Shown here piece by piece: positions 5,275 to 51,980 of a stretch of DNA of 58,609 bases. Origin of the DNA: Thiotrichaceae bacterium (GTDB taxonomy: Bacteria; Pseudomonadota; Gammaproteobacteria; Beggiatoales; Beggiatoaceae); assembly GCA_029939505.1 (NCBI GenBank), contig JAOZSV010000009.1, positions 1 through 58,609 of the forward strand, read 5' to 3'. How positions within the stretch are numbered: the stretch's first letter is position 1; each line of letters begins with the position of its first letter. The notes below the pieces were generated by a model that did no database searches, was not told the DNA's origin, and was given only the letters and a program-made list of their open reading frames with translations. The position numbers and the translations under genes were made by a program.

Positions 5275-6340
5275 TTATACATTGTATTCAGCTTCATTTT
5301 CCAACAATATCATTTGTTCATATGTCTCATCAGTTTTATCGTGCTTACTCACTAAATTAAATGCATTATCACCATATTTTTCTTTCACAATTTTTTTGAA
5401 TTCGTCAATAGTATCTTCATGATTTTTTAAAAACCAGCTTATGTGATCTTCTAAATATTTATGCCTAATTTTTGGTTTCCTGAGATCATTAGGTACTCTT
5501 TCCATCCTTGAGTCTATGCTATCAAAACCATTGAATGGTTCATTAAGCCTTGTGTTTGTCATTTCTACATATGCAGGGTTTAATTCAAAGCCTATTGCAT
5601 CTTGATTTAGTTGTTGGCAAACACGTAATGTTGTACTGCTTCCAGAAAATGGGTCTAAGATAAGACCATTTTCGTTACTTGAAGCCAGAACCATTCTTTC
5701 AATAAGACCTTCTGGCTTTTGTGTCGGATGATTTTGTCGATTTTGATTGCAATAATGGACATGAGAGAATTTCCAGACATCACCAGGGTTGGCACCTCGC
5801 ATATTATTTCTCGCTCGATAATATTTTTGTGGCACACGAACATCATCTAAATTGAAAACAAAATCATTTGATTTTGTAAACATTAGACTTGTCCCTTAAT
5901 AAGCTAAGTTATTGATTTATATCGTTTTGATATTTAGCATTTTCAAGGGTTTACGCTTATTAAGGGACAAATCTATTAAAATATCATCATGCCTCGGGGA
6001 AAAGCCTTTAGTTTTGCCAAGTCCTTGGGTGTAATGCCAAACTATCCAGCTATTAAAAAACAGCCCTAAATCTCTATCTAAAATGTCATCTAAATACGAT
6101 ATAAACCTAACGCCCATAAACACATATATAGTGCCAGTCGGTTTTAGCACTCTCTTAGCCTCAGATAGCCACTCCTTAGTGAACTCTATATAATTCATCA
6201 AACCCCTTTAAGTCATGGTTGTTACCATAGTTTTTTCCTAAATTGTATGGAGGATCTGCAACGATAACATCAATAGACAAACTATCTACTTTTTTGAACA
6301 GCTTTAAAGCATCACCACAACGTAAATCGATGTTTGCCAT
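5275..6340 (-). pseudogene. Type II N6-adenine/N4-cytosine DNA methyltransferase, frameshifted and interrupted
   Basis: From ATG at 6340 the protein begins MANIDLRCGDALKLF with motif IV DPPYNLGKNYG (about 35-45). It continues through EWLSEAKRVLKPTGTIYVFMG and HPTQKPEGLIERMVL to the SAM-binding DPFSGSSTTL, so motif IV precedes motif I (beta-type order). Two lesions are visible. An extra A/T at 6192-6193 shifts the frame (GAATTAT for expected GAATAT), and an 88-bp element sits at 5886-5973. Removing one base, the element and one TA copy leaves 975 nt, exactly 325 codons, and a continuous family-like protein of 324 residues. It was the modification half of a restriction system and is probably inactive now. 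The homopolymer indel could be a sequencing error; the insertion could not. Confidence 0.85.
5884..5975. mobile_element. 88-bp MITE with TA target duplication inside the methyltransferase
   Basis: The ends are GACTTGTCCCTTAATAAGC (5886-5904) and its inverse GCTTATTAAGGGACAAATC (5955-5973), 19-bp terminal inverted repeats with one mismatch. The element is flanked by TA on both sides (5884-5885 and 5974-5975). Precise excision of 88 bp plus one TA restores the host reading frame (ILI-MFTKSNDF). A TA duplication is characteristic of IS630/Tc1-mariner transposition, so a relative of that family probably mobilised it. No transposase is encoded. Confidence 0.85.
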
Positions 6341-8157: not shown

Positions 8158-8268
8158 AAATATTATCCAATTGGAGTACAACGCTTTAGGTGATTTATTG
8201 AAAAGAATGTATAGATGTCCAGATAAGTTCCAACCAATAGTTACTTATTGAATGGTATTTAATAGTAT

Positions 8269-9348
8269 TCAATCAGCTTTGAAAGCGGCACCATATTGTC
8301 CGCTGAGAAATCGTTCTAAAATATTTTGTGCGCCAACAAGGTCAGCGTGTTTTTCATACCCACAGCGAAGACACAAAAATTTTTCACCAGAACGATTTTC
8401 CCGCTCAACATGGGTGCATGTTGGACATGTTTGACTGGTTTTATAGGGATTAACCGAACGGAAGGAAACACGGTTTTCTTCGCATCGCATCTCAATAATA
8501 TTGAGCAATTCTCTATAGTTCCAGTTGCTGAGCGTCTTTCTAAAGGCTTTACCTCGGTTTTTACTTTTTCCACGTTTTAAGTGTTTTAATTTTTCAACCA
8601 CCACTAAACGCAAGTTTTTATGTTGTGAAAAATAGTCTTTTACCATTTTATGTCAATAATATGATAATGCTTTTTTTGCCGTTTTGTACTTTTTTGAACC
8701 TTGTTTTTTAGCTTTTATTTTGTTGATTTGTTGTTTAACTTCACTACCAATTAATTCTTGGTCACTGGTTGCCAGTAGATGATTAATGCCAACATCAATG
8801 CCTACATTTTTCCCTGTGGTTAATTTTTTATCGGTTTCTTTTTCAAAGGAAAACTGTACATATTCACGATGAATAGTAACAGTTGTTGAACGTTTCCAAT
8901 TGTAAAATTGGTTCATCTGACGATGAGATTTAATCGGCATGTTGATTTTTATTTTATGTCCGATTGAAGTTAAAACCAACCAATAATTAAACTGATTAGA
9001 TTGTGAATTTTCAATCTTGACAACTTGGGCGGATAAAATCATTTTTCGACCGCTATGATGGGGTTTTACCGATTCCCTGTCCATTTCTTGAGCTGATGTT
9101 TTTTCGCCGTCCACCATGCCCAATGCTTCTCTGGCTGCACATTGACGCATTCTTGCTGTCAGCCATGAATGTGGTATATTGGTAATATCTTTGGTAAGGT
9201 CTTTTTTAGCAAATTCATTACCCCAAAACATTTCAATGAATAAATTCACCAAACAACTGTATTCATCCATTACCCCATAAAGGGTTTGGCGTTTCTTTTC
9301 AGTTAAAAACTTCAAGCTGGTTTTACTTGAGCGAATTATTTTCATCAT
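8269..9348 (-). pseudogene. tnpB: TnpB RNA-guided nuclease, in-frame nonsense codon
   Basis: TnpB is the RuvC-type, RNA-guided nuclease of IS200/605/607 elements. The frame is continuous for 360 codons except a TGA at 8653-8655 (codon 232). Before it lie the N-terminal domain and first RuvC aspartate in GIDVGINHLL (D185). After it come VVVEKLKHL (E252), a zinc finger CPTC...CLRC (C308, C311, C326, C329) and HADLVGAQNIL (D336). All catalytic residues are therefore preserved, and a single C-to-T change in CGA (Arg) would explain the stop. The start overlaps the tnpA 3' end by 26 nt. Truncation removes two of three catalytic acids, so it is presumed inactive. Confidence 0.88.
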
Positions 9349-10184
9349 TCAATTCTTTGATTAAGCGTTCGGTTCTGCGCTTACTTCTGCGCAAACCATA
9401 TAATCTTGCGGTAAAACTTGTGACCAAACTGACAAAATCTTTCATTAACTCATCTTTATCATTAGTTGCTGGATTAATCACTTCTATTAGACATCCTCGT
9501 TCATTCATCCAATTTTGAATATAGTTGAATCCAAAACGAGTCAATCTATCATGATGTTCAACTACAATACAGGTTACATCAGTATTATTGAGCATTTTTA
9601 TAAGCTTAGGACGTTTATCGTTGAGACCTGATGCACATTCTTTAATGATTTCATCAACACGATAACCTTTGGCGGCACAATAAGAAACCAAACGTTCCGC
9701 TTGTTTTTCAAGATTATTTTTATTTTGAGATGAGGATACTCTGCAATAACAAATCGTATAATCTGGTTTATTTTTATTTTCATCTATGAGTCCCCTCCGA
9801 AAAGTCGAAAATATCGGTATCGGTATATGAGAATGCTAAGATTGAGTCCCCTTCAGAAAGTCATTTTAAGAGGGTGTATAAGCAATTGCTAATATACAAA
9901 TCTCTTTGTTTTCAATAAGTTGAAATATTAACATTCTCTAATATGCCGATATTTTCGACTTTTCGGAGGGGACTCAAGATTTCAACTTATTGAAAACAAA
10001 GAGATTTGTATATTAGCAATTGCTTATATACCCTTTTAAAATGACTTTCTGGAGGGGACTCATCTATTAAAATTTGACCAAATTCATTTTGAAATGCACC
10101 TGCTATTTTTCCTGCTTTATAACGATTCCAAGCGGTTCTATATTGAACGCCTTGTTCTTTTGCATAGTCTTTTAGTCTCTTCAT
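9323..10184 (-). pseudogene. tnpA: IS607-family serine recombinase TnpA, split by a nested element
   Basis: The N-terminal part (10068-10184) encodes MKRLKDYAKEQGVQYRTAWN, a MerR-like helix-turn-helix. The catalytic domain resumes at 9781 with ENKNKPDYTICYCRVSSS, containing the resolvase active-site serine, then VVEHHDRLTRFGF and the C-terminal helix. A 274-bp palindromic element plus a 6-bp duplication separates the halves. Subtracting 280 nt from 862 leaves exactly 194 codons (193 residues), a normal IS607 TnpA length. The ORF continuing from the N-terminal half into the element (ending at 9987) is an artefact. As it stands no functional recombinase is made. Confidence 0.88.
9782..10067. 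mobile_element. 274-bp nested palindromic element inside tnpA, with 6-bp target duplication
   Basis: The element (9788-10061) has ends GAGTCCCCTCC and GGAGGGGACTC and is flanked by ATCTAT on both sides (9782-9787, 10062-10067). It contains four arms in the order A-B-A'-B'. A is 9788-9840 and its inverse A' is about 9935-9975. B is 9844-9930 and its inverse B' is about 9979-10061. Each arm boundary carries GAGTCCCC or GGGGACTC. The interlocked order suggests two related elements, one inserted in the other, or a fold-back of both. No ORF of its own. Confidence 0.85.
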
Positions 10185-10252
10185 CTAAGATAGTATATCA
10201 CACTATTTTTTTCTATAAAATACTATTTAATCAGTAAATGTATATAATACTT

Positions 10253-10291
10253 TCGAGGTTTGAGTTTTTATTCAAAAAACTCAAACCTCGA
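10253..10291. repeat. TCGAGG...CCTCGA hairpin (H1 family)
   Basis: A 39-nt perfect-arm hairpin: TCGAGGTTTGAGTTTTT pairs with AAAAACTCAAACCTCGA. It is one of at least eight copies in the window, with compensatory arm changes (see findings). Immediately 3' is a half copy of the AACCTGTCAGGTT repeat (10293-10348). Confidence 0.75.
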
Positions 10292-10339
10292 AAACTAAAC
10301 TTGTCAGGTTTGGCTTGAAAGTTTAGGATGTGATTAACT

Positions 10340-10468: not shown

Positions 10469-10554
10469 CGGAAATTCCCAGACCATTTTAAAGGCAAAGA
10501 AATCCGATTTTTTGAAAAAATCGGATTTCTCGATGGTCTGAAGATTTCCGCCCT
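10466..10554. repeat. 89-bp palindromic element around the AAATCCGA hairpin (copy 1)
   Basis: Outer arms AGGCGGAAAT and ATTTCCGCCCT, then CAGACCAT / ATGGTCTG, surround the inner hairpin GAAATCCGATTTTTT / AAAAAATCGGATTTC. A close copy sits at 23784-23872, where pairing extends outward (CTAGT..AGGAG / CTCC..ACTAG). The inner hairpin occurs alone or in other outer frames at 16263, 18262, 39785, 51814 and the right window edge. Confidence 0.7.
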
Positions 10555-14002: not shown

Positions 14003-15818
<1,816 letters not shown>

Positions 15819-16100: not shown

Positions 16101-16457
16101 TTCATTTCGAGGCGAAAGTTAGGAATGAGAATTGAATAATACATAAAACTAAACCTGTCAGGTTTGACTTTATTCATCATTCATGAACCTATCCCGCCCT
16201 ATTCAAAAATGCGGAACCCTGAATAAAAATCGTTTGGTTTTTAAGCAAAAAACGAGGGTTAAGAAATCCGATTTTTTCAAAAAATCGGATTTCTAAGCTC
16301 AAAAATGAATAGTGGGATAGGTTCATCATTCAGCATTCGAGAGTCGAGGTTAAAGTTTTTTTAAAAAAAACTTTAACCTCGACTTGAGTTTTTTGAAAAA
16401 AAACTCAAACCTCGAAACCATTCACCATTCCACCTTGAATCCGAATAATTGATAACT
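16101..16457. repeat. gatC-gatA spacer made of four repeat modules
   Basis: In order: the left half of the AGGAATGAG / AACCTGTCAGGTT repeat (16121-16176); a 142-bp element (16184-16325) with ends TGAACCTATCC and GGATAGGTTCA and the AAATCCGA hairpin at its centre, flanked by TCATTCA on both sides (16177-16183, 16326-16332); an H1 hairpin with arms GGTTAAAG/CTTTAACC (16344-16382); and a second abutting it (16379-16415). A relative of the 142-bp element lies at 51748-51877. Confidence 0.7.
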
Positions 16458-17915: not shown

Positions 17916-18358
17916 TTATTAATTATTAATTAGGAAGAATCACCAAATAACTTTCGAGGCTAATTTGAATAAAAACTTTAACCTCGAAAGTTAAGTATTA
18001 ATATCCTGTACAAAGAAAAAACCGCGTAAATCATAAAAAAATAATTAAAATAAAATAGTTAATCAATATTTTTACCAACAACCTTACTAAATAAGATGGT
18101 TATTATGTCATATTGGTTAAATTTCAACCATTTACTGTATTTTTGACTCAAGTTGAACTTATTTTCAATCTCGTTGATTTTAAAGCGTTTTTTTTATTAA
18201 TAGCAACGCATTAATATTCAAGTCTATCGAGGTTCTTGCAAGACTCTGAACACACGAGGTTTAAGAAATCCGATTTTTGAAAAAAATCGGATTTCTAAGG
18301 CTAAAAACAGTTTTGCAAGAGCCTCTATCAAAAAAACAATTTGTAAATTTGGAGGAAT
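17916..18358. other. Repeat-bearing spacer after gatA
   Basis: It contains a TAATTATTAATTATTAATTA run just after the gatA stop, a degenerate H1-like hairpin (17953-17990, TTTCGAGGCT / AACCTCGAAA), about 200 bp of AT-rich DNA without recognisable content, and the 97-bp element at 18229-18325 listed next. Confidence 0.5.
18225..18329. mobile_element. 97-bp MITE with GAGGTTCTTGCAA ends and 4-bp target duplication (copy 1)
   Basis: The ends are GAGGTTCTTGCAAGACTCTG and the inverse CAGTTTTGCAAGAGCCTC, flanked by TATC on both sides (18225-18228, 18326-18329). The interior is the AAATCCGA hairpin. A second element with the same ends, but a different interior, lies at 30863-30986 and is flanked by TAAC. 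Two independent 4-bp duplications support real transposition. Confidence 0.8.
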
Positions 18359-23556: not shown

Positions 23557-23978
23557 ATTGATTATTCAGGCATTCAAAGATAAATTGTAATTGCTCAGCC
23601 CCCAGCGAGAGCTTTCATCGTTATACACAAGTCAAAAATCGTCAAAAGTAGGGTAGAGTGAAACGAAACCCACCATTTTGGTGGATTTGTGCCACTTCGT
23701 TTCTACTCACACTACGAAAAAAATAATTTAAATCAAATACTTAAATTTTTTCGTATAACGATGAGAGCGAGAGCTAGTACAGGAGAGCGGAAATTCCCAG
23801 ACCATTTTAAAGGCAAAGAAATCCGATTTTTTGAAAAAATCGGATTTCTCGATGGCCTGAAGATTTCAGCCTCCAGCACTAGTGTGGGGTGAAATTGATT
23901 TCAAGGCTGAGTAATTACGAATTAACAATTTTAGGCTTAAAATATCTACTTAAACATCGAAAACTTATCCCTGTACAC
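23557..23978. repeat. Nested palindromes between hpf and ptsN
   Basis: An outer pair GAGCTTTCATCGTTATAC (about 23608-23625) and its near inverse GTATAACGATGAGAGC (23754-23769) encloses a hairpin GGGTAGAGTGAAACGAAACC / CACTTCGTTTCTACTC (23650-23712). Next comes an element like 10466-10554 (23784-23872; GAGCGGAAAT ... ATTTCAGCCTC with the AAATCCGA hairpin inside), then TTGATTTCAAGGCTGAGTAA. No gene is seen. Confidence 0.65.
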
Positions 23979-39450: not shown

Positions 39451-39938
39451 CTCAACTCGATCATCAAGTTTTCTCGTTATCCCAAACAATAACTACAAGG
39501 ATTGTATATAAGAAAGGATTGGATCGAGGTTATGCTCGTTTTTAATCCATTCTAATTTGGTATCCAACCTTTTAGCGTTTTTAATCCCTTTTTATATACA
39601 ATCCTTGTATAGCTCGTGTCACATGATTTTTCCCGATTTTAAAGTATAAAGTCTTCTCAATTCTAAATTCCACCGATTTCATCGGTGGCTATTCACATTT
39701 CACCCCGTTGGGGTTAGTTAGTTTCAACCCGTTATTGGGTTAAACATGAATAGCCACCGATGAAATCGGTGGAACTATTCGAGCTTAGAAATCCGATTTT
39801 TGAAAAAAATCGGATTTCTTAAACATTTTGGAAACATCGTGCGTAACATCAGTTAATTAGCGTTTTTAATCCCTTTTTATATACAATCCTTGTAGTTATT
39901 GTTTGGAATAACGAAAAAAACTTGATGATCGAGCTCAA
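39451..39938. mobile_element. 478-bp MITE with about 60-bp terminal inverted repeats and 5-bp target duplication
   Basis: The left end CTCGATCATCAAGTTTT ... CCAAACAATAACTACAAGG (39456 onward) is the inverse of the right end, which closes CTTGATGATCGAG at 39933. The match extends about 60 bp, through ATTGTATATAA. CTCAA flanks both ends (39451-39455, 39934-39938). The right-hand copy overlaps the yajD stop codon. Inside are a second hairpin reusing the ATACAATCCTTGTA arm (39494-39609), a CCACCGATGAAATCGGTGG pair (39665-39775) and an AAATCCGA hairpin (39785-39820). No ORF; non-autonomous. Confidence 0.85.
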
Positions 39939-50561: not shown

Positions 50562-51023
50562 ATTTTTTTCTCCACTTATTAAGTTAAGTGCCATGATAAT
50601 GATACAATTTATGTAACTACTCAGGGCAACCACAAGGGATTGCCCCTACATCAGAAGATTTTCGTCAGTCGGAATAAAAATATTGTAGGGGCAATCCTTT
50701 ATGAGGGGCAATCCTTTATGGTTGCCCTGAATAGTTACCAATTTATAATATTATTAAAGTCGAGGTTATAGCTTGTGAAATTTAAAATTCGAGCTTATAG
50801 TTTTTTGAAAAGAATTAAGAATTGATTCCATTTTGAAAATGGAGTTCGAGGTTTTAGTTTTTTGAAAAAAAACTAAAACCTCGAAAACGCTTTAGCTTTG
50901 TGATTTGGAGTACATTTGAGGTTTGTCAGTCTGCCCAAAGCTGACTCGAACTCCTACTTTAACTCTTAATTTGCATAAAAAAACGATAACCTCGAAAACG
51001 CTTCAGCTTTGGATGGAAAAAAA
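50562..51023. repeat. Nested repeats between the ATPase gene and ung
   Basis: A palindrome (50607-50740) starts GTAACTACTCAGGGCAACCA and ends GGTTGCCCTGAATAGTTAC, with GGATTGCCCCTACA / TGTAGGGGCAATCC inside. Next is GGAGT...AACGCTTTAGC split by an H1 hairpin with arms GGTTTTAG / CTAAAACC (50846-50884). Last is the right half of another H1 fused to AACGCTTCAGCTTTGG (50990-51013), directly against the ung ribosome site. Confidence 0.65.
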
Positions 51024-51683: not shown

Positions 51684-51980
51684 ATCTCTGTAGAGTTCTC
51701 CAAAAAAGTTTTATCCTGTAGTGAAGGTTTGGAGCAAAATTTATATAAACCTATCCGGCCTATTCAAAAAATGCTGAACATAAAAATATTTTTTTGGCAA
51801 AAAACAAGGTTTAAGAAATCCGATTTTTGAAAAAAATCGGATTTCTAAGCTCAAAAACGAATAGGGCCGGATAGGTTCATGGATTACAGGACAATTTTTA
51901 CCGTTTTAATCAAAATTAACAATGCGAATTAAGAATTAATTTTTTTTGAAAACGCCAATTTTAACTCTTACAAAACCCTT
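51684..51980. repeat. AACCTATCC palindromic element upstream of argS
   Basis: The element (51748-51877) has ends AACCTATCCGGCCTATTC and GAATAGGGCCGGATAGGTT with the AAATCCGA hairpin inside. It is a relative of 16184-16325, but no target duplication is visible. GCGAATTAAGAATTAA and AATTTTAACTCTTA motifs follow just before argS. Confidence 0.65.

Follow-up and report, generated by a model that had tools for sequence, protein, structure and literature searches.

Two copies of one MITE family, one inserted in the other, form an interlocked four-arm palindrome within the tnpA gene of an IS607-type element

The stretch of DNA analysed here, referred to as the window, comprises 58,609 nucleotides from a Thiotrichaceae bacterium and carries an IS607-type element on the minus strand at positions 8236-10250 (2015 bp including an insertion), delimited by an alignment to the sister genome G002 that stops at both borders. 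The element contains a Resolvase domain (PF00239, E 3.4e-10) and a TnpB-type TNB domain (PF07282, E 1.1e-17), and the name IS607, taken from the original prediction, fits the gene pair found. An uninterrupted copy of 1735 bp is present in G002 (C842:1481-3215). In the window, tnpA (9326-10184, minus strand, without stop codon) is broken by the insertion, both of its parts matching the G002 TnpA, whose open frame of 193 amino acids (C842:2571-3149) has exactly the length originally predicted for an insertion-free TnpA. The tnpB gene (8269-9348, minus strand) is present as two ORFs of 231 and 125 amino acids in the same frame, split by a premature stop, and corresponds to a single open segment of 359 amino acids in G002. 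No obvious target duplication was seen at the IS607 borders.

The window is rich in other repeats. A hairpin family with the arm TTTCRAGGTTTRAGTTTTT has 16 arm matches in the window with 0 being expected, its arms being located at 10251-10293 and at 14 further positions, e.g. 15376-15418, 15465-15507 and 50844-50886; one copy begins directly at the IS607 border. The copy at 15465-15507 shows the same departures from the pattern in both arms, suggesting that pairing has been maintained. Hairpins of this type match at many places in the own genome, G000, and in G002 among the matches listed. A second family with the arm AGAAATCCGATTTTTT and a spacer of 1 nt has 13 arm matches (0.01 expected), with copies at 10498-10530, 16262-16294, 18264-18296, 23817-23849, 39787-39819 and 51814-51846. 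Two adjacent ORFs at 5275-6201 resemble, as judged from their translations, putative pieces of a DNA methyltransferase.

The insertion in tnpA spans 9788-10061 (274 bp), with ATCTAT on both sides at 9782-9787 and 10062-10067. Its inverted arms occupy 9787-10062 and are interleaved in the alternating order A-B-A'-B': the first pair joins 9787-9820 with 9943-9976 (34 nt, 97% complementary), the second 9843-9929 with 9976-10062 (87 nt, 95% complementary). All four outer arm tips carry GAGTCCCC, and a search for the end pattern allowing up to three mismatches gave four matches in the window, with 0.01 expected from shuffles. The size, the two alternating arm pairs and the 6-bp ATCTAT duplication had all been predicted from the letters of this stretch and were confirmed. 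A second 6-bp duplication, AAGATT at 9838-9843 and 9976-9981, surrounds the inner unit and had escaped the original prediction. Scanning the window against Rfam at gathering scores gave no match at the insertion, the sole match in the window being the 16S rRNA at its start.

The insertion consists of two copies of one non-autonomous element (MITE) of about 132 bp with the ends GAGTCCCCTCCGAAAAGTC. The outer copy, in plus orientation, is divided into a left piece at 9788-9843, which includes the left AAGATT, and a right piece at 9982-10061, both defined by alignment with the other copies and together amounting to 136 bp. Between them, and in opposite orientation, lies a complete inner copy of 132 bp at 9844-9975 (minus). 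Arm A finds its complement in the right end of the inner copy and arm B in the outer copy's right piece, so that the A-B-A'-B' layout follows from the order outer-left, inner, outer-right. Terminal inverted repeats of about 19-20 nt are found at both ends of the MITE, which is short and devoid of a transposase gene, measuring 130-136 bp in seven close copies and 123 bp in a diverged copy from a further genome of the same genus (G001 C14). The outer and the inner copy are 94% identical outside gaps and differ additionally by indels, showing that neither is a simple duplicate of the other. The outer copy is marginally nearest to a solo copy on contig C328 of the own genome (95% identity outside gaps), while the inner copy is nearest to copies at G002 C218 (96%) and C348 of the own genome (95%), which, as pairwise identities with no tree behind them, suggests that the inner copy was not derived from the outer one.

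Single copies of the kind that the original prediction proposed to look for are indeed present: the own genome (5.58 Mb, 497 contigs) contains three solo MITE copies, C348, C328 and C296, and at C316 a fragment, the shorter solo unit corresponding to window positions 9844-9975. Across the own genome and 29 relatives, the solo unit matched in 3 of 30 genomes, G000, G001 and G002, which belong to one genus; both same-genus genomes and none of the other 27 relatives gave matches. These three genomes hold eight full-length copies, i.e. five in G000 (outer, inner, C348, C328 and C296), two in G002 (C218 and C67) and the diverged one in G001 (C14; 75% identity in the genome search, 79-81% when aligned with the remaining full-length copies, gaps disregarded). 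In a census tolerating two mismatches at most, the end pattern occurred 25 times in these genomes (15 in G000 and 5 each in G001 and G002), the reversed pattern serving as a control giving 1, 0 and 1 ends in G000, G001 and G002. No match to the MITE was obtained in the plasmid and phage collections searched. The four-arm unit had no second copy in the own genome or the two same-genus genomes searched, and none was seen when the solo unit was used to search the 29 relatives; nesting had been predicted to fail as an explanation if this unit only ever occurred whole, and what we find is single copies and no further compound.

The flanks of these elements show a consistent target. Both flanks were readable for eight elements, i.e. 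seven MITE copies and a larger insertion sequence (IS) on contig C445, and in seven of the eight they are identical 6-bp repeats (outer, inner, C348, C296, the C445 IS, G002 C218 and G001 C14); for the MITE copies alone this amounts to 6 of 7. The matching repeats ATCTAT, AAGATT, ATATCT, ATTTCT, AATATT, AACCAT and AAGTAT all conform to ANNNNT, a pattern whose frequency in the window is 0.099. A clean repeat is lacking at solo copy C328 (CTTAAT / AATAAT). G002 C67 was left out of the count as its contig ends at the element, and the base beside its readable end is an A instead of a T, against the ANNNNT rule. Seven further single ends from the census gave five sequences fitting ANNNNT (AAGGTT, ACTTAT, ATATTT, ATCTAT and AATTGT) and two departing from it (GGAAAT and TTAAAT). 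A 6-bp duplication with the element end GAGTC and a 4-bp duplication with the end TGAGTC would fit equally well, the two readings giving the same sequence because all matching repeats start with A and end with T.

Three empty sites illustrate the state before insertion. The first is the IS607 copy at G002:C842, which aligns with window positions 8236-9787 (99.4% over 1552 bp) and 10060-10250 (100% over 191 bp); TCATCTAT is present once in this copy and twice in the window. The comparison with an empty tnpA that had been suggested at the outset thus returns an uninterrupted gene with a single ATCTAT. The flanks of the two IS607 copies differ, so that they represent the same element at different places. 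The second, G002:C678, corresponds to the locus of solo copy C348 but lacks the MITE and has a single ATATCT; its left flank shows 98% identity over 597 bp, and its right flank, a repeat-type sequence, 87% over 268 bases of the query. The third is given by solo copy C328, which runs uninterrupted through GCTAAGATTTCAAC with AAGATT once at the same element position, which is how the outer copy should have looked prior to the arrival of the inner one. Among the matches listed, no orthologous empty site was seen for G002 C218 or G001 C14.

The C445 IS of the own genome (C445:13707-15896, 2,190 bp) has the same ends as the MITE and AATATT on both sides. It shares about 20-24 bp of its ends with the MITE, the interior not being shared, and its transposase gene is disrupted, being spread over several frames; the link between IS and MITE accordingly rests on ends and repeats. 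Five transposase pieces were scanned: one matches DUF772 (PF05598, 4.5e-9), one matches DDE_Tnp_1_6 (PF13751) just below the cut-off of that model (2.9e-5) and three match nothing. The NCBI IS1182 model NF033551 is the best model for one C445 piece and for two relatives, L079 and L080, at 29.8, 74.3 and 77.8 bits, all below its cut-off of 270 for IS1182 family membership, and IS1182-like here denotes a weak resemblance and not a family assignment. In the search for an intact parent transposase in relatives, a 181-amino acid stretch matched in one of 57 genomes, the own genome, at two places. Three distant relatives of the transposase were found. L079 comes from a Bacteroidetes MAG and is 55% identical in its best segment; its transposase is open, and similar ends, TTTGAGTCCACTC and TTTGAGTCCCCTC, lie 1.9 kb apart, with no matching target repeat next to them; no such ends were found for L080 and L081 in a scan of 16-nt arms with up to two mismatches spaced 1.3-2.6 kb. 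The transposase gene of the C445 IS itself contains a hairpin repeat (L019 3614-3663, IS positions 307-356) with more than 20 other match places in G000 and G002.

These data support a model according to which a first copy of about 132 bp would have jumped into the IS607 tnpA at the 6-bp ANNNNT target ATCTAT, and another member of this family would later have entered the first one, inverted, at AAGATT. Both would most likely have been moved in trans by the DDE transposase of an IS1182-like insertion sequence whose terminal repeats are the same. We consider this nested self-insertion of one MITE family to be very probably the correct explanation. As read from the DNA, it builds on two complete copies with a separate target duplication each, on solo copies and empty sites, and on a larger element that shares the ends. 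One half of the original prediction, insertion of one element into a relative, is thereby upheld: each unit has a target duplication of its own, single copies exist, and the three empty sites agree. Mobilisation in trans by the IS1182-like transposase is probable, and we infer which transposase acted and that it cut and rejoined the DNA. The outer copy would have arrived first because it is the interrupted one, unless the two were already nested when they reached tnpA.

This latter possibility, that the pair became nested elsewhere and entered tnpA as one 274-bp compound by its outermost ends, would have left an identical sequence, and these ends are intact, bear a matching target duplication and are in principle usable by a transposase. 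We nevertheless judge it unlikely, as the compound was not seen a second time in the own genome, in the two same-genus genomes or in the 29 relatives probed with the solo unit, and two steps in place require no extra event. We likewise consider it unlikely that the inverted pair behaves as a foldback-type compound, its 87-bp inverted repeat extruding as a hairpin and the whole excising or moving by the outermost ends.

A functional structure was the other half of the original prediction, with the arms forming two alternative cruciforms or hairpins that would act as a switch. The region does fold strongly as single-stranded DNA (-91.8 kcal/mol compared to -21.95 for shuffles, sd 3.16, z -22.1), and a solo MITE folds as well (z -6.0). 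However, a fold of this strength is to be expected from two copies of one element in inverted orientation, the pair disrupts a transposon gene, both units have insertion scars and the layout was not met again in the genomes searched. Two cruciforms are unnecessary to account for the layout, and we rejected a cruciform switch or regulatory structure, which appears most implausible. An assembly artefact joining two MITE copies might be suspected in a draft genome of 497 contigs in which the copies are repeats, and is scarcely credible given that about 6% of the aligned positions, plus indels, distinguish the copies, that both have exact 6-bp target repeats and that the outer copy agrees with an empty site found in a different assembly. 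We also rejected a tandem duplication or inversion of a single element, in view of the separate target duplication of each unit and the differences between the copies.

Under nested self-insertion, an exotic-looking interlocked four-arm palindrome results from two ordinary jumps of one element. The family comes with a parent-type element and with solo copies, and a sister genome preserves both the host gene and one solo site in their empty form, so that the history of the family and its 6-bp ANNNNT target become directly readable.

Compared to known systems, the host element shares with IS607 the gene pair of a serine-recombinase TnpA and TnpB, the copy in the window being doubly damaged, in tnpA by the nested pair and in tnpB by the premature stop. 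The larger same-ended element contains transposase pieces as in IS1182-type elements (DUF772 plus DDE_Tnp_1_6), and the ends of L079 are similar, although the scores are far below the NCBI cut-off. IS1272 is a member of the IS1182 family. The present copies leave 6-bp duplications, whereas IS1272 is reported to replace stem-loops without target duplication (PMC5678879). Gene-disrupting MITEs are already known from a giant sulfur bacterium, Ca. Thiomargarita nelsonii, in the form of its hupL MITE (PMC4853749), and from other bacteria, including Chunjie of Geobacter (PMC10969869). With these, as far as those accounts describe them, the present family has in common that it is short and gene-less, has terminal inverted repeats and target duplications, inserts into genes and occurs in several copies per genome. 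It differs from the hupL MITE, for which direct repeats of 10 bp and matches on 260 out of 439 contigs are given (PMC4853749), by its 6-bp ANNNNT repeats, the sharing of its ends with an IS1182-like element and the presence of only five full copies in the own genome. What we describe is another MITE family with a nested pair, an ordinary history of mobile DNA and no new device.
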